In this document: one piece after another, positions 3,641-31,947 of the stretch
Layout: every line of letters starts with the position of its first letter
How positions within the stretch are numbered: position 1 is the first letter of the stretch
Source of the DNA: Acetobacteraceae bacterium
Lineage (GTDB): Bacteria; Pseudomonadota; Alphaproteobacteria; Acetobacterales; Acetobacteraceae
DNA length: 32,958 nt
Reading direction: 5' to 3'
Assembly: GCA_027365195.1 (NCBI GenBank)
Contig: DAHXNW010000011.1
Span: 1-32,958 of the forward strand
Made by a program: the position numbers and the translations under genes
Notes under the pieces: generated by a model
Databases searched by the model: none
Seen by the model: only the letters and a program-made list of their open reading frames with translations
What the model was told of the DNA's origin: nothing

Positions 3641-4824
3641 GCCGCCGCGAGGCCCAGCAGATGCGCCATGTTCTTGGCGAAAATACGCATATGCGCCATC
3701 GGCTTGGCGCGCACCAGTTCCTTGTTCATATAGGCATCCCACGTCAGTTGCTGCACATCGGCGTCGCGGCAGATGTTCACGAAGCGCTCGCGCCGCGCGT
3801 CATTGGCGTACCAGAAGCGCTGCATCATCCCGAGGATCCAGAACACCTGGCCATGCGATTTCATGAAGCGCCGACGCGCGCTGCGCAGCGCGCGCGCATC
3901 GCCGCTCGCATGCATCGCCTCCACCGCCTCGGCGGCGAGGCGCCCGCCGAGCATCGCGTAATAGATCCCCTCGCCGGAGGCCGGGGCGACGACACCCGCC
4001 GCATCGCCGGCGAGCACCACGTCGCGCCCGTTATCCCAGCGCGGCAGCGGGCGTAGCGGGATCGGCGCGCCCTCGCGGCGCAGCGTCTCTGCGCCGTCGA
4101 GTCCGGCGACCTCGCGCAGCGCGCCGACCGCGCCGCGCAGCGCGAAGCCCTTCTGCGCCGATCCGGTGCCGACGCTGGTGGTCGCGCCGTGCGGGAAAAT
4201 CCAGCTATAGAAATCCGGCGACAATTCGCCGCGATAATAGACATCGCAGCGCTCGGCGTCGAAATCCGTCGCGTTCGCCGCCGGCGAGCGGATGATCTCG
4301 TGATAAGCGAAGACGAAGCGCGCCCGCTCCGCCCCCGGTATCGCCTGGCGCGCGACCGCCGAGAGCGCGCCATCGGCGCCGATCACCGCCCGCGCACGCA
4401 CCTGCTGCACCTCGCCGGAGGCGAGCTTGTAGTGCACCAAAAGCGCGCCATCGGCGCCGCGCTCCAGCCGCTCGAACAGGCCGCGGCGGCGCGTGGCGCC
4501 GACGGTTGCGGCGCGCGCGCGCAGCCATTCGTCGAAATCCAGCCGGTCGACCATGCCGACGAACCCGTCCGCAATCGGCATCTGCGCTTCCCGGGCGCGC
4601 GGCGAGACGATGCGCGCCGCGCGCACCCGCGCCACCAGCAGCGAGTCGGGAATGTCGAACTCGCGCAGCAGCCGGGGCGGGATGGCGCCCCCGCAGGGCT
4701 TGATCCGTCCGGCGCGATCGAGCAGCAAAACCGAGCGGCCGAGCCGGGCGAGATCGGCGGCGGCCGTCGCACCGGAGGGGCCACCGCCGACCACCACCGC
4801 ATCGAAGGTTTCAACCTGGCGCAT
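3637..4824 (-). CDS. bchP: Geranylgeranyl diphosphate / geranylgeranyl-bacteriochlorophyll reductase
   Basis: FAD-binding N-terminus FDAVVVGGGPSGATAAADLARLGRSVLLLDRAGRIKPCGGAIPPRLL; PGC position between tspO and a pucC-like gene; start chosen at MRQVETFD. Confidence 0.93.
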   Translation of the reverse strand: MRQVETFDAVVVGGGPSGATAAADLARLGRSVLLLDRAGRIKPCGGAIPPRLLREFDIPDSLLVARVRAARIVSPRAREAQMPIADGFVGMVDRLDFDEWLRARAATVGATRRRGLFERLERGADGALLVHYKLASGEVQQVRARAVIGADGALSAVARQAIPGAERARFVFAYHEIIRSPAANATDFDAERCDVYYRGELSPDFYSWIFPHGATTSVGTGSAQKGFALRGAVGALREVAGLDGAETLRREGAPIPLRPLPRWDNGRDVVLAGDAAGVVAPASGEGIYYAMLGGRLAAEAVEAMHASGDARALRSARRRFMKSHGQVFWILGMMQRFWYANDARRERFVNICRDADVQQLTWDAYMNKELVRAKPMAHMRIFAKNMAHLLGLAAA

Positions 4825-6151
4825 GGCGTGGGCCCTTTGCTGAAGCGAGGGCAGGGCGGGGCGCATGCGGGCGTGCCTCGAACACCCGCACGGCCAATTC
4901 GGCGGCCATCAGGAACAGCGCCGCGGCGCTGGCGAACACCAGCGCATAGGCGGTGGCTGGGGCGGCGGCGAGCAGCCGCGCCGCATCACTCGCCCCGGTG
5001 CCGAGCAGGCCACCGAGGGCGAAGGCGATCGCCTGCGCGCCACCCCACAGACCGATCCGCATGCCGGTCGCTGCCTCGCCGGCGGCGCCGGCCAGTTGCA
5101 TCATCGCGCCGATGGCGGCGACGGTGAAGGCGCCGTTGGCGATGCCGAGGGCCGCGACCGTCGGGCGCAGCAAGGAATGCAGCCCGAGGCAACCGACCGC
5201 GGCGAGGGCGAGTAGGGCCGCCGCCGAGGCGGCGCAGCCGCCGATCGTCCAGCCACGCAACGCCGCCCCGCCGCCCCGGCCACCGAGCAGAGCCACCAGC
5301 AGCATGCCCGCGAAGGCGCCGCCATGCTGCAACCCGGTCAACTGCGCCGAGGCACCGGGCGGCAGATGGAACACCCGTCCGGCAAACGGTTCGAGCAGCA
5401 ATTCCTGCGCGCTGTAGGCCAGCATCGAGAGGAAGATGAACATCGTGAAATGCCGCGCCCGCCGGTCCGCCCAGACCTGCGCCAGCGCCGCGCGGAACGC
5501 CGGCCGCGCCGCGCCCTCATCGGCGGTGGCGACCGCCGGACCCTCGACGCCCCACACCGCCAGCACGGTGAGCAGCAGCGCCGCCGTGACGGTGGCCGTG
5601 GTGACGGCGAGCAGCCGGGACGCCGAGAATGGCTGCAGCCAGTGGCCGGCGAGCGTCGCGGTCAGCGCGAAGCCGGCGAACATCATCAGCCACACGATGG
5701 TCGCCGCCGCCGCGCGCCGCGCCGGCGCCACCCGCCGCGCCAGCAACGCCAGCAACGCGGTGCCGGCGGCACTCACGCCGAGGCCGACCAGCACGAAGCC
5801 CGCGAGCGCGAGGAGGATGCCGCCCGGCCGATGCGCCGGCAGCAGCGCGATGGCACCGGCCACCGTCAGCCCACCGCAGGCCAGCACCGCCATGCCGCCG
5901 ATGATCCAGGGGGTTCGCCTGCCGCCGACGTCGGAGCCATGGCCGAGGCGCGGGCGCAGCATCTGCACCGCGTAATGCAGCCCAACCAGCGCCCCCGGCA
6001 ACACCGCCGGCAGCGCCAGCTCCACCACCATCACCCGGTTCATCGTCGCCGTCACCAGCACGACGATGGCGCCGAGAGAGGTCTGCACCAGGGCGAGGCG
6101 CAGGATGCCGCCGAGGCCGAGCGGCGCGCCGGATGCCACGCGGTGTGCCAT
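4811..6151 (-). CDS. PucC/LhaA family BCD transporter (Bch2-like)
   Basis: Starts MAHRVASGAPLGLGGILRLALVQTSLGAIVVLVTATMNRVMVVELALPAVLPGALVGLHYAVQMLRPRLGHGSDVGGRRTPWI; typical family N-terminus and position between bchG and bchP. Confidence 0.88.
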   Translation of the reverse strand: MAHRVASGAPLGLGGILRLALVQTSLGAIVVLVTATMNRVMVVELALPAVLPGALVGLHYAVQMLRPRLGHGSDVGGRRTPWIIGGMAVLACGGLTVAGAIALLPAHRPGGILLALAGFVLVGLGVSAAGTALLALLARRVAPARRAAAATIVWLMMFAGFALTATLAGHWLQPFSASRLLAVTTATVTAALLLTVLAVWGVEGPAVATADEGAARPAFRAALAQVWADRRARHFTMFIFLSMLAYSAQELLLEPFAGRVFHLPPGASAQLTGLQHGGAFAGMLLVALLGGRGGGAALRGWTIGGCAASAAALLALAAVGCLGLHSLLRPTVAALGIANGAFTVAAIGAMMQLAGAAGEAATGMRIGLWGGAQAIAFALGGLLGTGASDAARLLAAAPATAYALVFASAAALFLMAAELAVRVFEARPHAPRPALASAKGPRHAPG

Positions 6152-7074
6152 CAGCCCGCCCCGGCCGCGGCGCGCAGGGCGAAGGCGCAGATCAGCATGC
6201 CCCAGACATAGAGCGTGGTGCCGGTGGCGTTGTACCACGGCGCCCGCGCCCGGGGGCTTGCCAGCAGGCGGACCATCAGCCCGAGCTGCACGACGAGCAG
6301 AAGCCCGATCGCGCCCGCCGCGAGGGTGAAGCCCCAGGTGAGCAGCAGCGCCATCACCGCGCATTGCGCCAGCGCCATCACCGCGCAGGCAACCCGCCCG
6401 GCGCCGGCGACGCCGAGCTGCACCGGCAGCGAGGCGAGGCCCATCGCACGGTCGCCCTCGATCGATTTGAAATCGTTCAGCGTCATGATGCCATGCGCGC
6501 CGACACTATAGAGGGCGGCGATGGCGAGCAGCCGCCCACCCGGCGCCGCGCCGCCGAGCAGTGCCGCGCCGGTGAACCAGGGCAGCCCCTCGTAACAGAG
6601 GCCGACCGCCGCATTGCTCCACCAGCCGTTGCGCTTCAGCCGCACCGGCGGCGCGCTATAGGCCCAGGCCAGGATGAGACCGACGATCGCGGCGCCAAAC
6701 ACCCAGCGCCCGAGCAGGGCGGCGACGGCGAGCGAGAGCGCGCTCCAGCCGATGGCGAGATAGAACCCCCAGGCGCCCGGCATCCGGCCGGAGGGAATCG
6801 GCCGGTCCGGCTCGTTCACCGCATCCACCGCACGGTCGAACCAGTCGTTCACCGCCTGGCTGGTGCCGCACACCAGCGGCCCGGCGAGCAGCACGCCTGC
6901 GGCGATCGCCGGCAGATGCGGCGTGAGCGGCCGTCCCGCCGAGATCACGCCGCAGCCGAATGCCCACATCGGCGCGAACCAGGTGATCGGCTTGAGTAGT
7001 TCGAGCACCGTGCGCGGCGACGGATAGGCGAGCGGCGCGCCGCCCAATGACACATCATGCGCGCCGCTGCTCAT
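6151..7074 (-). CDS. bchG: Bacteriochlorophyll synthase (chlorophyll synthase, UbiA family)
   Basis: LELLKPITWFAPMWAFGCGVISAG...NDWFDRAVDAVNEPDRPIPSGRM...YSAPPVRLKRNGWWSNAAVGLCYEGLPWFTG. Confidence 0.95.
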   Translation of the reverse strand: MSSGAHDVSLGGAPLAYPSPRTVLELLKPITWFAPMWAFGCGVISAGRPLTPHLPAIAAGVLLAGPLVCGTSQAVNDWFDRAVDAVNEPDRPIPSGRMPGAWGFYLAIGWSALSLAVAALLGRWVFGAAIVGLILAWAYSAPPVRLKRNGWWSNAAVGLCYEGLPWFTGAALLGGAAPGGRLLAIAALYSVGAHGIMTLNDFKSIEGDRAMGLASLPVQLGVAGAGRVACAVMALAQCAVMALLLTWGFTLAAGAIGLLLVVQLGLMVRLLASPRARAPWYNATGTTLYVWGMLICAFALRAAAGAG

Positions 7075-17924: not shown

Positions 17925-18625
17925 TGGGCGCACTCACCTATCAGGAGCGGCGCGGACGGATCGAGACCTATTTCGACCGCACCGCCGCCGATGCCTGGGC
18001 GCGGCTCACCTCCGATGCCCCGCTCGGGCGCATCCGTGCCACGGTGCGCGCCGGGCGGGAGGCGATGCGCGCGACACTGCTCGACTGGCTGCCCGCCGAT
18101 CTGTCGGGCCACCGGCTGCTCGATGCCGGCTGCGGCACCGGGGCGCTCGCGGTGGCGGCGGCGCGGCGCGGCGCGGAGGTGGTTGCGATCGACATCTCGC
18201 CGACGCTGATCCACCTCGCCAACGAACGCGTGCCCGACGATCTGGCGCCCGGCATGGTGCGCTTTCTGGTCGGTGATCTGCTCGACCCCGCGCTCGGCCG
18301 CTTCGATTACGTGGTGGCGATGGATTCGCTGATCCATTATCCGCCGGCCGAGATCGCCCGCATGCTGGCCGCCCTCGCCGCGCGCACCGAGGCGGCGGTG
18401 CTGGCCACTTTCGTGCCGCGCACGCCGATGCTCGCCGTGATGCACGCCGCCGGGCGGCTGTTTCCGCGCGGCGAGCGCGCGCCGGCGGTGGAGCCGGTGA
18501 GCGAGGCGGCGCTACGCCGGCGGCTCCGCGCGGCACCCGGCCTCGCCGGCTGGCAGATCGCGCGCACGCGGCGGGTGAGCGGGGGGTTCTACACCTCGCA
18601 GGCGATCGAAATGGTGCCGGCATGA
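17924..18625 (+). CDS. bchM: Magnesium protoporphyrin IX methyltransferase
   Basis: LDAGCGTGALAVAAARRGAEVVAIDISPTLIHLANER SAM motif; ends SGGFYTSQAIEMVPA; position after bchL. Confidence 0.95.
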
Positions 18626-20070
18626 GCACGCTCGATATGACAGCGGTGAATGCGCGGCTGGCCCGCGCCTGGGTATGGATCGGCCCGCGTTTTCTGCCGT
18701 TCGCCGATGTCGCGAGCGCCGAGGTGCCGCTTTCGCGGCTTTTGCGCCTGTCGCTGTTTCAGGTCAGCGTGGGGATGGCGGCGGTGCTGCTGATCGGCAC
18801 GCTGAACCGGGTGATGATCGTGGAATTGGGCGTGCCGGCCTGGCTGGTGGCGCTGATGGTTTCGTTGCCGCTGGTGTTCGCCCCGGCGCGCGCGCTGGTG
18901 GGGTTTCGCTCCGACACCCATCGCTCGGTGCTCGGCTGGAAGCGGGTGCCGTATCTGTGGCTCGGCACGCTGGCGCAGTTCGGCGGGCTTGCGATCATGC
19001 CGTTCGCGCTGATCGTGCTGTCGGGCGATTCCAACGGGCCGCCGATCATCGGCCAGATCGGTGCGGCGCTGGCCTTCCTGCTGCTCGGCGCCGGCATGCA
19101 CACGACGCAGACGGTGGGCCTGGCACTCGCCACCGACATCACCCCGCCGTCCGCCCATTCGCGCGTGGTGACGCTGCTCTGCGTCATGCTGGTGGTGGGG
19201 ATGGTGCTGAGTGCGGTGATCTTCGGCCTGCTGCTCGCGCATTTCAGCGAGGTCCGGCTGATCCAGGTGATCCAGGGAGCCGCGCTGAGCACCATGCTGC
19301 TCAATCTGCTGGCACTGTGGAAGCAAGAGGCGCGCGACCCCTCGCGCACCCCGATGGACCGCGCGCGGCCCGCGTTTCGCGACTCCTGGCGCGCGCTGCG
19401 CGGCGAGGCCGGGGCGGTGCGCCGGCTGGTCGCCGTCGGTCTCGGCACCGTCGCCTTCAGCATGCAGGACGTGCTGCTGGAACCGTATGGCGGGCAGATC
19501 CTGCATCTGCCGGTCGGCATGACGACGCGGCTCACCGCCCTGCTGGCGCTCGGCGGCATCGTGGGCTTCGCGTTGGGCGCCTGGGCGCTGGCGCGCGAGG
19601 TCGATCGCTATCGGCTGGCCGGTGGCGGCGGGCTGATCGGGCTGCTCGCGTTCTCGGCGGTAATTTTCGCCGCCCCGCTCGACTCCGCCGCCTTGTTCGC
19701 TCTCGGCATCGCGCTGATCGGCTGCGGCGCGGCGATTTTCGGCCTCGGCACGCTGAGTGCCGCGATGGCGCGCGCCGATGCCGGGCAGACCGGGTTGGCG
19801 CTCGGCACCTGGGGCGCGGTGCAGGCTTCGGCCGCCGGGGTCGCGATCGCCTTTGGCGGGCTGCTGCACGATGCGCTCGCACAGTTCGCCGCGCGCGGCG
19901 CGCTGGGGCAGACGCTCGCCACTCCGGCAACCGGCTATGAATGTGTCTATCTGCTCGAAATCGTCCTGCTGTTCGCGACCCTCGCGGCACTCGGCCCGCT
20001 GGTGCGTCCGGCGGGCGAGCGGGCCGCGTCCACCACGGCGCGGTTGCGCCTTGCCGAATTTCCCCGTTAA
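18622..20070 (+). CDS. lhaA: LhaA/PucC family light-harvesting complex assembly protein
   Basis: LLRLSLFQVSVGMAAVLLIGTLNRVMIVELGVPAWLVALMVSLPLVFAPARALVGFRSDTHRSVLGWKRVPYLW. Confidence 0.93.
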   Translation: MSTLDMTAVNARLARAWVWIGPRFLPFADVASAEVPLSRLLRLSLFQVSVGMAAVLLIGTLNRVMIVELGVPAWLVALMVSLPLVFAPARALVGFRSDTHRSVLGWKRVPYLWLGTLAQFGGLAIMPFALIVLSGDSNGPPIIGQIGAALAFLLLGAGMHTTQTVGLALATDITPPSAHSRVVTLLCVMLVVGMVLSAVIFGLLLAHFSEVRLIQVIQGAALSTMLLNLLALWKQEARDPSRTPMDRARPAFRDSWRALRGEAGAVRRLVAVGLGTVAFSMQDVLLEPYGGQILHLPVGMTTRLTALLALGGIVGFALGAWALAREVDRYRLAGGGGLIGLLAFSAVIFAAPLDSAALFALGIALIGCGAAIFGLGTLSAAMARADAGQTGLALGTWGAVQASAAGVAIAFGGLLHDALAQFAARGALGQTLATPATGYECVYLLEIVLLFATLAALGPLVRPAGERAASTTARLRLAEFPR

Positions 20071-22271: not shown

Positions 22272-23336
22272 ATGTACGAAATCCCGACCGCCGCGGTACC
22301 CAACGAAGCCACCATTCACGCCCAGCAGGACACCGTGCTGAGCCCGCGTTTCTACACCACCGATTTCGCCGCGATGGACCGCATCGACGTTGGTCCGGTG
22401 CGCGCCGAGTGGGATGCACTGATCGATGAGTTGCGCCGCGACATCAACCGGGGCCATTTCATCCGCACCGATGCCTTCGACATCGATCTCTCGACCCTGC
22501 CCGACGATCTGCGACAGGAATTTCTCGATTTCCTGATCAGCTCGGTGACCGCCGAATTCTCCGGCTGCGTGCTCTATGCCGAGATCAAGAAGCGCATCAA
22601 GAACCCCGACATTCGCGAGCTGTTCGGCTTCATGAGCCGCGACGAAGCGCGCCACGCCGGCTTCATCAACGACACGCTGAAGGATTTCGGCGTCGGCGTC
22701 GATCTCGGCTTTCTGGCGCGGGCAAAAAAATACAACTATTTTCAACCCAAATTCGTTTTCTACGCGACCTATCTCTCCGAAAAGATCGGCTACGCCCGCT
22801 ACATCACCATCTTCCGCCAGTTGCAGCGCCATCCGGAGCGGGAGTTCCACCCGATTTTCCGCTGGTTCGAGCAATGGTGCAACGACGAGTTCCGCCACGG
22901 CGAGGCGTTCGCGCTGCTGATGCGCGCCGACCCGAGCCTGCTCGCCGGGCGCAACCGGCTGTGGATCCGCTTCTTCCTGCTCGCCGTGTTCGCCACCATG
23001 TATGTGCGCGACCATTCGCGCCGCGTGTTCCACGCCGCCCTCGGCCTCGACCCGACCGCGTATGATTTCGAGGTGTTCCGTATCACTGCCGAGATCGCGC
23101 GCCAGGTGTTTCCGGTGGCGCTCGATCTCGATCATCCGGCCTTCCGCGCCGGTCTCGATCGGCTGTTCCGCATCACCGAGGCGAAGGCCGAGAGCCGCCG
23201 CCGGCCGGGTATCTTCGGTGCGATCAAGCGCGCCGGGCTGACGCTCGCGGCGGGGGTGACGTTCGCGCGGCTGTTCCTGCTGCCGCCGCGCCAGAGCGCG
23301 CTGCCGAAGCAGGTTCGCCTGTCGCCGGCCTGGTAG
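22272..23336 (+). CDS. acsF: Oxygen-dependent Mg-protoporphyrin IX monomethyl ester oxidative cyclase
   Basis: Di-iron ligand region [58 protein letters not shown]. Confidence 0.97.
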
Positions 23337-23347
23337 GGAACGCGCGC

Positions 23348-25129
23348 ATGGCACGCTATGGATTTCCGATCCTGTTCGATCTCTTCGTGTGGTGGTTCAG
23401 CACCGGGCTGATCATCTATCTCGACGGTCTGCCGCGCCGCACCTTCCGCTGGAGCATGCTGGGGGCGACGGCGCTGCTCGCCGCCTCGCTCTACGGCCTC
23501 GCCCTGAGTGCGGACGATACGTCGGTGCGTGGCGCCTATATCGCCTTCACCTGCGGCATGCTGGCCTGGGGCTGGCAGGAGATCAGCTTCTACATGGGCT
23601 TCGTCACCGGTCCGCGCACCGAGCCCTGCGCCGAAGGCTGCGCCGGCTGGCGGCATTTCGGCCATGCGATCCAGACCAGCCTGTATCACGAGCTGGCCAT
23701 CATCGCGGCCGCCTGCATGGTGGTGGGGCTGACGTGGCATGCGCCGAACCAGATCGGCACCTGGACCTTCATGGTGCTGTGGTGGATGCATCAGAGTGCC
23801 AAGCTCAACGTGTTCCTCGGCGTGCGCAATCTGAACGAGGAATTTCTGCCCGAGCATCTCACCTTTCTGCGCAGCTTCCTGAAAAAGAAGCCGATGAACC
23901 TGTTGTTCCCGGTCTCGGTCACCGTCTCGACGGTGATCGCGGTGCTGCTGGTGCGTCAGGCGATGGCACCGGGGGCCGGTGCGTTCCAGGCGGCGGGCTT
24001 CACCTTCCTCGCCACGCTGATGATCCTCGCGATCCTGGAGCACTGGTTCCTGGTGGTGCCGCTGCCGGCGGCGGCGCTGTGGAGCTGGGGGCTGCGCTCG
24101 CGCAAGGCGGTGCAGGCGTTCGATGTCGAGATCGTCGCCGGCTTCCTCGGCGCCGGCAAAACCACCTTCCTGCGCCGCCGCCTCGCGGAAGCGGACCCTG
24201 CGCAGCGCACCGTGGTGCTGGTGAACGATTTCAGCGCGATGGATGTCGATGGCGCGCTGCTGCGCGAGCGCTCGGCGAACGGCGCGGAGGTGGTGGAACT
24301 GCCGAACGGCTGCATCTGCTGCTCGCTGCGTCAGGATCTGGGCAATCAGTTGAAGGCGGTGGTCGCCCGCTTCGCGCCGGACCGCGTGCTCATCGAGCCG
24401 AGCGGCGTGGCCGACGTCGCCGCCCTGCTCGGGGTCATCAACCAGCCGGAATTGCGCCCGCTGGTGCGCGGCCTGCGGGTGTTCGCGATGATCGATGCCA
24501 GCGCCTTCCTCGCCGATTTCGCCCGGCTGGCGCAGTATTTCGAGGCGCAGGCGAGGCTCGCCGACGTGCTGATCGTGAACAAGGCCGATCTCGCCTCGGC
24601 GGCCGAGATGGCGGCGGTGACGGAGACCATCCGCGCGATCAACCCCGATGCGCGCATCATCCCCGCGCGCTTCGGCGTGGTGCCGGCGGCGGTGCTCGCC
24701 GCCAAGACACCGCCGCCCGAGCCGGCGCCCGCCCATCACGATCACGCCCATCACGAGCACGCCCACCACGATCACGCGCACCACGATCATGATCATCACC
24801 ACGACGCCGGGTCCGGGCATGAGGTCGCCCTCGGCTTTGCTTCCTGGAGCACCGCGCTGGAGGGCGATTGCGACCCCGAGCGTCTGCTGGCGCTGCTTGA
24901 TGCGATCGCCGGGGGCGCTTATGGCGGGGTGGTGCGGGTGAAGGGCATCGCGCGGGTGGGCGATGGCTGGCTGCGCTTCGATGTCGCCGGCGGCCGGCCG
25001 GCGATCGCCGCCTTCGCGCCGCAGCGGGAAGAGCCGGCGCGGGTGGTGGCGATCGGTCATGGACTCGATGAGGCGGGTTTGCAGCTTGGGTTCACCGCCT
25101 GCCACGCCACGGCGTCGGCGCTGGTCTGA
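23348..25129 (+). CDS. puhE: PuhE (photosynthetic complex assembly membrane protein) fused in frame to a COG0523/CobW-type metallochaperone GTPase
   Basis: aa 1-~256 multi-TM PuhE ([35 protein letters not shown]...[48 protein letters not shown]...[13 protein letters not shown]); then Walker [10 protein letters not shown] (24140-24166), CICC (24311-24322), EPSGVAD, NKADL, His-rich tract and a CobW C-terminal-type region. No stop between the parts. Confidence 0.92.
24734..24805 (+). repeat. His-rich tract encoded by degenerate 15-bp tandem units ([24 protein letters not shown])
   Basis: Read directly: 15 His in 24 codons within the GTPase half of the PuhE fusion. Confidence 0.95.
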
Positions 25130-25193: not shown

Positions 25194-26405
25194 ATGAATT
25201 ACGAGGCGTTTTTCAGCGATCAACTCGACGGCCTCCGCCGCGAGGGCCGCTATCGCGTGTTCGCCGATATCGAGCGCCGGGCCGGCGGCTTTCCGCGCGC
25301 CACGCATCATCGCGCGGGCGGGCGCGAGGAGGTGACGGTATGGTGCTCGAACGATTATCTCGGCATGGGGCAGCATCCCGCCGTGCTCGCCGCCATGCAC
25401 GAGGCGCTCGACAGTTGCGGCGCCGGCGCCGGCGGCACCCGCAACATCTCCGGCACCAACCACCATCATGTGGTGCTGGAGCGCGAACTCGCCGATCTGC
25501 ATGGCAAGCCGGCGGCGCTGCTGTTCTCCTCGGGCTATGTGTCGAACTGGGCGAGCCTGAGCACCCTCGCGTCCCGGCTGCCCGGCTGCGTGGTGCTCTC
25601 CGATGCGTTCAACCACGCCTCGATGATCGAGGGCATTCGCCACAGCCAGGCGCCACGGCAGATTTTCGCCCATAACGACCCCGCCGATCTCGACCGTCGG
25701 CTCGCCGCCCTCGATCCGGCGGCGCCGAAGCTCGTCGCTTTCGAATCGGTCTACAGCATGGATGGCGATATCGCGCCGATCGCCGAGATTTGCGAGGTCG
25801 CCGAGCGGCATGGCGCCATGACCTATCTCGACGAGGTGCACGCGGTCGGCCTCTATGGCCCGCGCGGCGGCGGCATCGCCGAGCGCGAGGGGCTGAGTGA
25901 CCGGCTCACCGTCATCGAAGGCACGCTGGCGAAGGGTTTCGGCGTCATCGGCGGTTACATCGCCGCTTCCAACGCGCTCTGCGATTTCGTGCGCAGCTTC
26001 TCCTCCGGCTTCATCTTCACCACCTCCCTGCCGCCGGCGGTGGCCGCCGGGGCGACCGCGAGCATCCGCCATCTGAAGGCGAGCGGGGCGGAGCGGGCGC
26101 TTCATCAGGACCGGGTGGCGGCGGTGCGGCGCGGCCTCGATGCGGTTGGCGTGCCGCATCTGGCCAACCCGAGCCACATCGTGCCGGTGATCGTGGGCGA
26201 TCCACGCTTGAGCAAATGGATCAGCGATCAGTTGCTCGATCGCTACGGCATCTATGTGCAGCCGATCAACTACCCGACGGTTGCGCGCGGCACGGAGCGG
26301 CTGCGCATCACCCCCTCGCCGCTGCATAGCGATGCCGATATCGCCCATTTGGTCGCCTCGCTTTCGGCCATCTGGTCGGAGTTGAGCTTGCGGCGCGCGG
26401 CCTGA
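25194..26405 (+). CDS. hemA: 5-aminolevulinate synthase
   Basis: [29 protein letters not shown]...[48 protein letters not shown]...[25 protein letters not shown]. Confidence 0.97.
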
Positions 26406-29271: not shown

Positions 29272-30182
29272 GCGGCCGTCTCGACTGGGCGCGTGACGGG
29301 TGGGACTGGCCGAACCGGCAGAGCAGCCGCTTCCTGCAGGCCGGCGGGATCGACTGGCACGTGCAGACGCTGGGCAGCGGGCCGCCGCTGCTGCTGCTGC
29401 ATGGCACCGGGGCATCGACGCATTCCTGGCGGTGCCTCGCGCCGTTGCTGGCGCGGCATTTCAGTGTGGTGGCGCCGGATTTGCCCGGCCATGGGTTCAC
29501 CGGCCCGGCGCCGCGCAGTTCGCTGCCGGCGATGGCCGCGGCGGTCGCCGCACTGCTCGCGGCGCTGGCGTGCGAGCCGGTGCTGGTGGTCGGGCATTCG
29601 GCGGGGGCGGCGATTCTGGTGCAACTCTGCCTCGACCGGCGCATCGCGCCGCGCGGGCTGGTGAGCCTGAACGGTGCGCTGTTGCCGTTGCGTGGGTTGC
29701 CCGGGCAGATTTTCGCCCCGGTCGCGCGGCTGATGGTGGCACTCCCGTTGGTGCCACGGGTGTTCGCCCGCCTTGCCGCCGAGCGCAGCGTGCTGGAGCA
29801 GTTGGTGCGCGATACCGGCTCCACCCTCGATGCCGCGGGGCGTGATCTCTATGCGCGGCTCGCGCGCAACCCTGCCCATGTCGCCGGCGCGCTCGGCATG
29901 ATGGCGCAATGGGATCTGCGGCCGCTGCCCGCCGCGTTGCCGGGGTTGCAACCACGGCTGCTGCTGATCGCCGGGGCGCAGGACCGGCTGATCGCACCGG
30001 CGGAAGCGCGCCGGGTGGCGGCCCTGGTGCCGGGTGCAGCCCTGGTGACGCTGCCCGGCCTCGGCCATCTGGCGCATGAGGAGGCGCCGGAGCGGGTCGG
30101 CGAGTTGGTGGTCGATTTTGCCCGCACGCTCGGCGTGCCGGCGCCAGCGGTGGCGGAAAAGGCGACGGCATGGGCGCGCTGA
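29268..30182 (+). CDS. bchO: BchO, alpha/beta hydrolase (magnesium chelatase accessory protein)
   Basis: GPPLLLLHGTGASTHSWRCLAPLLARHFSVVAPDLPGHGFT...VVGHSAGAAILVQLCLDRR; follows bchD. Confidence 0.93.
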   Translation: MSGRLDWARDGWDWPNRQSSRFLQAGGIDWHVQTLGSGPPLLLLHGTGASTHSWRCLAPLLARHFSVVAPDLPGHGFTGPAPRSSLPAMAAAVAALLAALACEPVLVVGHSAGAAILVQLCLDRRIAPRGLVSLNGALLPLRGLPGQIFAPVARLMVALPLVPRVFARLAAERSVLEQLVRDTGSTLDAAGRDLYARLARNPAHVAGALGMMAQWDLRPLPAALPGLQPRLLLIAGAQDRLIAPAEARRVAALVPGAALVTLPGLGHLAHEEAPERVGELVVDFARTLGVPAPAVAEKATAWAR

Positions 30183-30436
30183 TGCAGGGCACGGCGCTCG
30201 CCGATACGGTGTTGGCGGTGATGGCGCTGGAGGCGCTGGTGGTGTTGGTCTGGTCGCGATTGGGGGATCGCGGCCTCGATCTCGCGGTGGGGCTGCTGCC
30301 GGGCGCCTGCCTCGTGCTGGCGCTGCGCGAAGCGCTGTTGCGGGCGGATTGGCGCTGGATCGGTCTCGCGCTCGGCGGCGCGTTGATCGCGCACGCCGCC
30401 GATCTGCGCCGGCGCCTGCGCCGGGTGGCGCGATGA
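30170..30436 (+). CDS. Small hydrophobic membrane protein of unknown function (88 aa)
   Basis: MGALMQGTALADTVLAVMALEALVVLVWSRLGDRGLDLAVGLLPGACLVLALREALLRADWRWIGLALGGALIAHAADLRRRLRRVAR; coupled to bchO (13-bp overlap) and crtI (ATGA). Confidence 0.75.
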   Translation: MGALMQGTALADTVLAVMALEALVVLVWSRLGDRGLDLAVGLLPGACLVLALREALLRADWRWIGLALGGALIAHAADLRRRLRRVAR

Positions 30437-31947
30437 GGCTCGATGCGGCGCGCGCTGGGCGGCCGGCCCCTCATGCGGTGGTGATCGGCAGTGGTTTCGG
30501 CGGGCTCGCCGCCGCGATCCGCCTCGGCGCGCGCGGCTATCGGGTGAGCGTGCTGGAGCGGCTCGCGACACCGGGCGGCCGGGCGCGGGTGTTCCGCCAG
30601 GATGGCTTCACCTTCGATGCCGGCCCGACCATCATCACCGCACCGTTTCTGCTCGAAGAGTTGTGGCAGCTCTGCGGCAAGCGGCTCGCCGACGATGTCG
30701 AGCTGCGCCCGGTGGCACCGTTCTATCGCATCCGCTTCGACGATGGCGCCTGGTTCGATTACAGCGGCGATGCGGCGGCGATGCGCGCCGAGGTGGCGCG
30801 TTTCGCGCCGGGCGATGTGGCCGGCTACGAGCGCTTCATGCGACATAGCGAGGCGATCTTTCGCATCGGCTTCGAGCAGTTGGGCGATGCCTCCTTCGAC
30901 CGCTTCACCGCCATGCTGCGCATTCTGCCCGATCTGCTGCGTCTCGGCGGCTGGCGCAGCGTGCATGGGCTGGTCGCGCGCTACATCAAAGACCCGCGGC
31001 TGCGCGTCGTTTTCAGCTATCACCCGCTGCTGATCGGCGGCAATCCGTTCAGCGCCAGCGCGATCTATTGCCTGATCGCCTTTCTCGAACGGCGCTGGGG
31101 CGTGCATTACGTGATCGGCGGCACCGGCCGGCTGATCGCGGGCATGGCCGCACTGATCGCGGGGCAGGGCGGGGAGCTGCGCCAGAACGCGGAGGTGGCG
31201 GAGATTGTGTTGCGCGACGGTGCCGCCTGCGGCGTGCGCCTCGCCTCCGGGGAATTTGTGGCCGCCGACATCGTCGTCTCCAACGCCGATTCCGCCTGGA
31301 CCCTCCGCCATCTGCTGCCGCCCGCCGCGCGCCGGCGCTGGAGCGACCGCAAGCTCGACCGCGCGCACTATTCCATGGGGCTGTTCGTCTGGTATTTCGG
31401 CACCAGCCGGCGCTATCCGGAGGTGGCGCATCACAGCATTCTGCTTGGCCCGCGCTATCGCGGCCTGCTCGACGATATTTTCACCAAACAGCGTCTGGCG
31501 GCGGATTTCAGCCTCTATCTGCACCGACCGACGGCGAGCGATGCCTCGCTCGCGCCGCCCGGCTGCGATGCGTTCTACGTGCTCTCGCCGGTGCCCAATC
31601 TGCAGAGCGGCATCGACTGGCAAAGCGCCGCCGAACCGTACCGCCAGGCGATCGCGCGGCATCTGGAGGCGACGCTGTTGCCGGGGCTGGAGGCGTCTTT
31701 GTTGTCCTCGCGGGTGATGACGCCGCAGGATTTTCACGACGATCTGCTCAGCCCGCATGGCGCGGGTTTCGGGCTGGAGCCGGTGCTGCGGCAGAGCGCA
31801 TGGTTCCGCCCGCACAACCGCAGCGAGGAGGTTGCGCGTCTCTTCCTCGTCGGTGCTGGCACGCATCCGGGCGCCGGTGTGCCGGGCGTGCTCTCCTCGG
31901 CGCGTGTTCTCGACAGGGTGGTGCCGCATGCCTCCGAACTCGTCTGA
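30433..31947 (+). CDS. crtI: Phytoene desaturase
   Basis: HAVVIGSGFGGLAAAIRLGARGYRVSVLERLATPGGRARVFRQDGFTFDAGPTIITAPFLLEELW...LFLVGAGTHPGAGVPGVLSSARVLDRVV. Confidence 0.95.
   Translation: MRLDAARAGRPAPHAVVIGSGFGGLAAAIRLGARGYRVSVLERLATPGGRARVFRQDGFTFDAGPTIITAPFLLEELWQLCGKRLADDVELRPVAPFYRIRFDDGAWFDYSGDAAAMRAEVARFAPGDVAGYERFMRHSEAIFRIGFEQLGDASFDRFTAMLRILPDLLRLGGWRSVHGLVARYIKDPRLRVVFSYHPLLIGGNPFSASAIYCLIAFLERRWGVHYVIGGTGRLIAGMAALIAGQGGELRQNAEVAEIVLRDGAACGVRLASGEFVAADIVVSNADSAWTLRHLLPPAARRRWSDRKLDRAHYSMGLFVWYFGTSRRYPEVAHHSILLGPRYRGLLDDIFTKQRLAADFSLYLHRPTASDASLAPPGCDAFYVLSPVPNLQSGIDWQSAAEPYRQAIARHLEATLLPGLEASLLSSRVMTPQDFHDDLLSPHGAGFGLEPVLRQSAWFRPHNRSEEVARLFLVGAGTHPGAGVPGVLSSARVLDRVVPHASELV

Follow-up and report, generated by a model that had tools for sequence, protein, structure and literature searches.

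A PuhE–COG0523 GTPase fusion in the photosynthesis gene cluster of Acetobacteraceae and other phototrophs, and its possible role in metal handling

Introduction

COG0523 proteins are G3E GTPases recognised by a set of defining motifs (PMC2770081). Cobalt-binding CobW is marked by an extra conserved cysteine pair (C56, C61) upstream of the CxCC motif; the characterised proteins YeiR and YjiA, which have no such pair, prefer zinc and bind Fe(II) weakly (PMC7895991). The activator of Fe-type nitrile hydratase also belongs to this family (PMC2770081). PuhE (TIGR03055/DUF3623) is a membrane protein with near-universal H114-E115 and E231-H232, encoded between acsF and hemA. For R. capsulatus, the title of Aklujkar 2005, as quoted in PMC11762602, describes puhE as a putative negative modulator of bacteriochlorophyll production. 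Zn-bacteriochlorophyll occurs in Acidiphilium rubrum, where Mg chelatase inserts Mg first, according to work cited in PMC4944227; how Zn then replaces Mg is stated to be unknown (PMC7242693).

Here we describe a gene in which PuhE and a COG0523 GTPase are joined in frame. By sequence, one half belongs clearly to PuhE and the other to COG0523. No paper naming PuhE together with COG0523 was found among the openly licensed literature that we searched, and the papers on COG0523 and on Acetobacteraceae in that literature did not mention the fusion. The main text of the COG0523 survey of Haas 2009 contains neither 'photosynth' nor 'fusion' or 'fused'. A preceding sequence-only reading of this DNA had stated that no role of such a fusion was described, which agrees with this literature.

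Gene architecture and family membership

The window, i.e. the whole stretch of 32,958 nucleotides that was analysed, comes from an Acetobacteraceae genome of 2.93 Mb that is 86% complete; the nearest relatives compared include Acetobacteraceae genomes. The fusion gene lies between acsF and hemA, as expected of the puhE of a puh operon. It is one uninterrupted open reading frame from ATG to stop, and the junction of the two halves is free of frameshifts and stop codons. Pfam assigned the 593-residue product to DUF3623 (E = 1.3e-116), cobW (E = 3.4e-42) and CobW_C (E = 4e-11), and the N-terminal part scored 343.2 bits against the NCBIfam PuhE equivalog TIGR03055 (cut-off 164.05). The ORF call and these domain searches thus bore out the proposal that a single frame runs from PuhE into a complete G3E GTPase with a C-terminal domain. 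All motifs quoted in that proposal were present, and the His-rich linker can be added to them (Table 1).

No conserved ATG, GTG or TTG was found around the junction among the carriers compared, so that a single polypeptide is expected. An internal start yielding a separate GTPase was rejected on the same ground.

Table 1. Features of the fusion gene and its neighbours in the window. Residues are those of the 593-residue product.
Feature	Residues	Position	Strand	Basis or remark
puhE-cobW fusion gene	1-593	23348..25129	+	ORF call, Pfam, no conserved internal start near junction
PuhE (DUF3623) domain	1-254	23348..24109	+	Pfam, TIGR03055, AlphaFold2 model
PuhE transmembrane (TM) helices, seven	2-26, 30-54, 60-82, 100-129, 136-156, 186-205, 212-236
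C94-x3-C98-x4-H103-x2-H106, TM3-TM4 loop		23627..23665	+	candidate metal acceptor, predicted cytoplasmic
Short linker past TM7	255-259	24110..24124	+
COG0523/G3E GTPase domain (Pfam cobW)	260-438	24125..24661	+	Pfam, fold match
Walker A / G1, GFLGAGKTT	265-273	24140..24166	+	motif alignment of carriers
CxCC motif, CICC	322-325	24311..24322	+	motif alignment of carriers; metal-binding motif by family
Walker B with Glu, EPSGVAD	350-356	24395..24415	+	motif alignment of carriers
G4 motif, NKAD	411-414	24578..24589	+	motif alignment of carriers
His-rich linker, 16 His	463-486	24734..24805	+	disordered in AlphaFold2 model
CobW_C domain	497-585	24836..25102	+	Pfam; persists without GTPase in other lineages
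acsF, upstream neighbour		22272..23336	+	aerobic cyclase from position and similarity; Pfam Rubrerythrin
hemA, downstream neighbour		25194..26405	+	aminotransferase class I/II family; 5-aminolevulinate synthase from context

The fusion resembles other PuhE proteins in its N-terminal 254 residues, its place in the operon and the two conserved residue pairs, but differs by the GTPase, His linker and CobW_C at its C-terminus and by a C-x3-C-x4-H-x2-H loop that is absent from most PuhE. With YjiA, YeiR, CobW and ZigA it shares the COG0523/G3E motifs: Walker A, Walker B with Glu and an intact NKxD, all nearly invariant in the carriers, and GCxCC, which reads GCICC at residues 321-325. It also shares their His stretch and CobW_C. 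Unlike these proteins, it is joined behind a seven-helix membrane protein inside a photosynthesis gene cluster. In the GTPase tree, a long stem leads to a single clade (support 99) of the fused GTPases, separate from the 50 stand-alone COG0523 proteins that were included from related genomes.

CobW, which serves cobalt supply for B12, is loosely nearest to the fusion in the GTPase tree (support 92), and has in common with it the CxCC motif, a His-rich stretch ahead of CobW_C and a tetrapyrrole context. However, the fusion lies in the photosynthesis cluster, scored far under the CobW equivalog cut-off (TIGR02475; 129.7 bits, cut-off 332.1) and lacks the CobW-specific cysteine pair, which is present as CGIPGC in the host's own CobW-like paralogue. 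Against ZigA (NF038288) it reached 101.9 bits, with a cut-off of 600. Judged by these curated cut-offs, the fused GTPase does not belong to CobW or to ZigA. A Zn-handling GTPase is favoured instead, because YeiR and YjiA, likewise without the cysteine pair, prefer zinc (PMC7895991). The best fold match of the fused GTPase was Zn(II)-bound YjiA (4ixm).

The host genome contains five Pfam cobW loci, namely the fusion, one UreG-like locus and others. Elsewhere in the window, a CrtI-family ORF (30076-31947) has about 130 residues ahead of its desaturase domain, and probably starts further downstream than listed. Two large ORFs of the photosynthesis cluster, at 18622-20070 (+) and 4811-6364 (-), had no NCBIfam match at the thresholds used.

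Recurrence of the fusion across genomes

The search for the combined PuhE and CobW architecture that the sequence-only reading had proposed, made by protein search against a collection of species genomes and by surveying related genomes, recovered the same in-frame junction in 46 distinct PuhE sequences. Carriers were found in families including Acetobacteraceae and Aurantimonadaceae, and comprise Acidiphilium, Acidocella, Lichenicoccus, other Acetobacteraceae, Jiella, Aurantimonas, Fulvimarina, Pararhizobium mangrovi, Lichenibacterium and metagenome-assembled genomes (MAGs) labelled Ferrovum. Several are isolates (A. rubrum ATCC 35905, Lichenicoccus roseus, Fulvimarina pelagi and Jiella spp.). 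Since the join recurs in independently assembled genomes, an assembly or frameshift artefact, which had been named as a possible refutation, was ruled out.

Among 66 sampled PuhE-bearing genomes of the window's family, about 15 carried the fusion, one of them truncated where its contig ends, and six carried a GTPase-less PuhE with CobW_C. In the other families of the class sample, the fusion occurred in one of 25 PuhE-bearing genomes. The view that PuhE normally stands alone therefore holds for most genomes, but the fusion is not unique to the window. No plasmid record carried a fusion-type GTPase at an E-value of 1e-40.

In nearly all carriers acsF adjoins the fusion, mostly just upstream. 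This raises the possibility that the GTPase delivers iron to the di-iron cyclase AcsF, much as the Fe-type nitrile hydratase is served by a COG0523 activator (PMC2770081). We consider such delivery improbable, because acsF is also found upstream of puhE, at the same place but without a GTPase, in 93 of the 95 PuhE-only loci. Adjacency to acsF was accordingly rejected as the reason for the GTPase: the gene lies upstream in most genomes whatever the architecture of puhE. The combination of CxCC and a His-rich linker also fits zinc better, and YeiR and YjiA bind Fe(II) only weakly (PMC7895991).

A few carriers deviate from the common pattern. In Jiella pelagia (L058), the fusion is intact except for one frame change in its GTPase half, due to either a sequencing error or a recent mutation. 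In Lichenibacterium minor (L063) and in L045, the fusion gene is located outside the puh operon and has neither acsF nor hemA nor puhA in its vicinity. The MAG with L045 contains two copies of the gene: L046 in the operon, and L045 itself, which has a SNF2-type helicase gene close to it.

Evolutionary history and selection

For 11 of the 13 pairs, the GTPase half had an omega of 0.033-0.112, with values similar to those of PuhE, which indicates that this half is under purifying selection; the His linker is under looser constraint. This strong selection, and motifs that remain intact across families and in transferred clusters, make it very improbable that the GTPase is a neutral passenger of no function in phototrophy, even though it has been lost several times.

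A third architecture, PuhE followed by CobW_C without the GTPase, was found in Blastochloris sulfoviridis, in relatives of Roseiarcus and in several members of the window's family. The loci concerned include L087:6001-7170, L103:6001-7125, L030:1201-2256, L035:1189-2244, L266, L269 and L273. Pfam did not report this CobW_C in four of five tested cases, so that standard annotation misses the domain. The CobW_C domains of the fused and the GTPase-less forms grouped together against 47 stand-alone COG0523 proteins, with a support of 90 that is not decisive. In the PuhE tree the architectures are scattered, with at least 11 changes (many forks are weak), and CobW_C outlives the GTPase in several separate places. 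No stand-alone copy of the fusion GTPase was found in the flanks of GTPase-less PuhE, nor any close stand-alone relative in 24 fusion-less genomes.

Traces of decay were found in several lineages. In Pelagibius (L038), a His-rich scrap and the last part of CobW_C remain behind PuhE, and in L042 a His-rich scrap does; we regard both as fossils of a loss. Three full-length carriers, and no others, have lost CxCC: L078, L270 and L079, the last from the L020 genome. The His linker is gone in all three. The pair L078/L079, the one motif-lost pair tested, had an omega of 0.41 in the GTPase and 0.17 in PuhE. Read from this one pair, metal binding and constraint on the GTPase appear to decay together. 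In L057, L059, L063 and L243, the His linker is absent although CxCC is kept. This pattern suggests to us that the join is old and has since decayed repeatedly, with metal binding lost first in some lineages.

Predicted structure and a candidate metal site on PuhE

The AlphaFold2 model of the fusion (pLDDT 87.9, pTM 0.75) consists of seven membrane helices, the GTPase domain, CobW_C and, ahead of the latter, the His linker, which is disordered; PuhE modelled alone reached a pLDDT of 95.0. A fold search with PuhE alone gave no significant match, and its sequence had no match in the PDB. The PuhE loops rich in K and R (residues 24-36, 84-109, 160-184 and 238-262) alternate along the chain. By the positive-inside rule, the C-terminus, and hence the GTPase, is predicted to be cytoplasmic. 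This N-out/C-in topology would place the GTPase and the TM3-TM4 loop on the same side of the membrane.

The C-x3-C-x4-H-x2-H loop was present in all 35 fused PuhE, in 17 of 85 PuhE-only sequences and in none of 11 PuhE with CobW_C but no GTPase. When H148 in TM5 is added to C94, C98, H103 and H106, the set was again complete in 35/35 fused sequences, against 9/85 and 0/11, respectively; only two phylogenetically independent contrasts fall on supported branches, too few for significance to be attainable, so that the association with the fusion could reflect shared descent. C98, H103, H106 and H148 stand out as fixed in fused PuhE and rare elsewhere, and are possible metal ligands. We regard the Cys2His2 set on the TM3-TM4 loop as a candidate metal acceptor site.

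Taken with the architecture, its conservation and its recurrence, these predictions lead us to a plausible, if tentative, reading: the fusion is a membrane-tethered metallochaperone or metal switch of the COG0523 type, probably for zinc, that acts in cis on PuhE. The GTPase, loaded with GTP and metal, would transfer this metal, with Zn(II) as the most likely one, to the Cys2His2 set of PuhE, and metal supply would thereby set the activity of PuhE in bacteriochlorophyll production and reaction-centre assembly. The His-rich linker presumably stores metal. Points in favour of this reading are the recurrence and single origin of the join, the low omega, the Cys/His set, the same-side topology and the fold match to Zn-bound YjiA. 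Points against it are the presence of the Cys/His loop in 17 PuhE-only sequences, the missing His linker in some carriers of CxCC, and the many phototrophs without a GTPase at the same operon position. The idea of a membrane-tethered metal GTPase had already been put forward by the sequence-only reading. It is now partly supported by an intact, predicted cytoplasmic COG0523 GTPase on PuhE, with CxCC, a His linker, purifying selection and the Cys/His quartet.

The same domains might also act as a metal sensor. The GTPase, its metal and CobW_C would then make up a regulatory head for turning PuhE on and off, and no metal would be handed on. The survival of CobW_C without the GTPase is what one would expect of an interaction or regulatory domain, and a negative modulator, as in the quoted title of Aklujkar 2005 (PMC11762602), would fit such a switch. 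However, the Cys/His set of PuhE tracks the GTPase, and a pure sensor would not need it; moreover, the long His-rich linkers, with up to 42 His, suggest storage or transfer. We therefore consider a pure sensor rather unlikely.

The join is also of wider use. Where a COG0523 protein is physically linked to a candidate partner, the usual hunt for clients of this family comes down to a single protein. PuhE, which is conserved but without a solved relative, gains a biochemical handle.

Relation to zinc bacteriochlorophyll

Glutamate at PufL-168 is a mark of A. rubrum that we take to be tied to its Zn pigment. Eleven genomes, which form one clade in the Acidiphilium/Acidocella part of the tree, have this residue (pufL of L118-L123, L128-L130 and L132, from Acidocella, Acidiphilium and related MAGs, and of L172). 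Its presence in the Acidocella MAGs and their relatives predicts Zn-bacteriochlorophyll there. Ten of the 11 genomes carry the fusion, which is intact in A. rubrum (L065, duplicate L017); the exception, MAG L082, has PuhE alone. An apparent break of pufM in the L082 genome was dismissed as a sign of decay, because the record has a stretch of N at this place.

In contrast, 20 of the 30 fusion carriers examined have His168 and presumably a Mg pigment. They include the host genome of the window (FHYNPAHM), whose pufL sits on a different contig from the fusion. Hence, the fusion is not sufficient for Zn pigment, and its use as a simple marker of that pigment was ruled out. The join also appears older than the change to Glu168. 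Of the 10 Glu168 carriers, 8 have a cysteine pair inside the His linker; all 20 His168 carriers lack such a pair. The difference may reflect one event, since all Glu168 sequences belong to one clade.

These results bear on whether the fusion is a dedicated zinc donor for the Mg-to-Zn exchange of Acidiphilium-type phototrophs. The intact fusion in A. rubrum, its presence in nearly all Glu168 genomes, the linker cysteines and the Mg-first order of insertion with its missing replacement step (work cited in PMC4944227; PMC7242693) all speak for such a donor. Nevertheless, the His168 carriers, the greater age of the join, the GTPase-less L082 and the single clade make it unlikely. The most elaborate version makes the missing factor of Acidiphilium Zn-bacteriochlorophyll a GTP-driven membrane machine, which would move zinc from the His store to the PuhE loop and on to the pigment or assembly site; this version seems to us equally doubtful. 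Of the earlier suggestion that metal is delivered or allocated at the site of bacteriochlorophyll synthesis, AcsF delivery is thus disfavoured and a Zn-pigment role is not general.

The metallochaperone or metal switch acting on PuhE leaves room for a lineage-specific extension. In the Acidiphilium/Acidocella lineage, a fusion with extra linker cysteines could also be the entry point of zinc for Zn-bacteriochlorophyll. The fusion is a natural candidate for recruitment to the Zn pigment. The question of how Zn replaces Mg in A. rubrum (PMC7242693) thereby gains a concrete gene from the organism's own photosynthesis gene cluster, with named residues to mutate.

A third residue at PufL-168, Met, was observed in two Pelagibius MAGs (L161, L167) that have also lost the GTPase.
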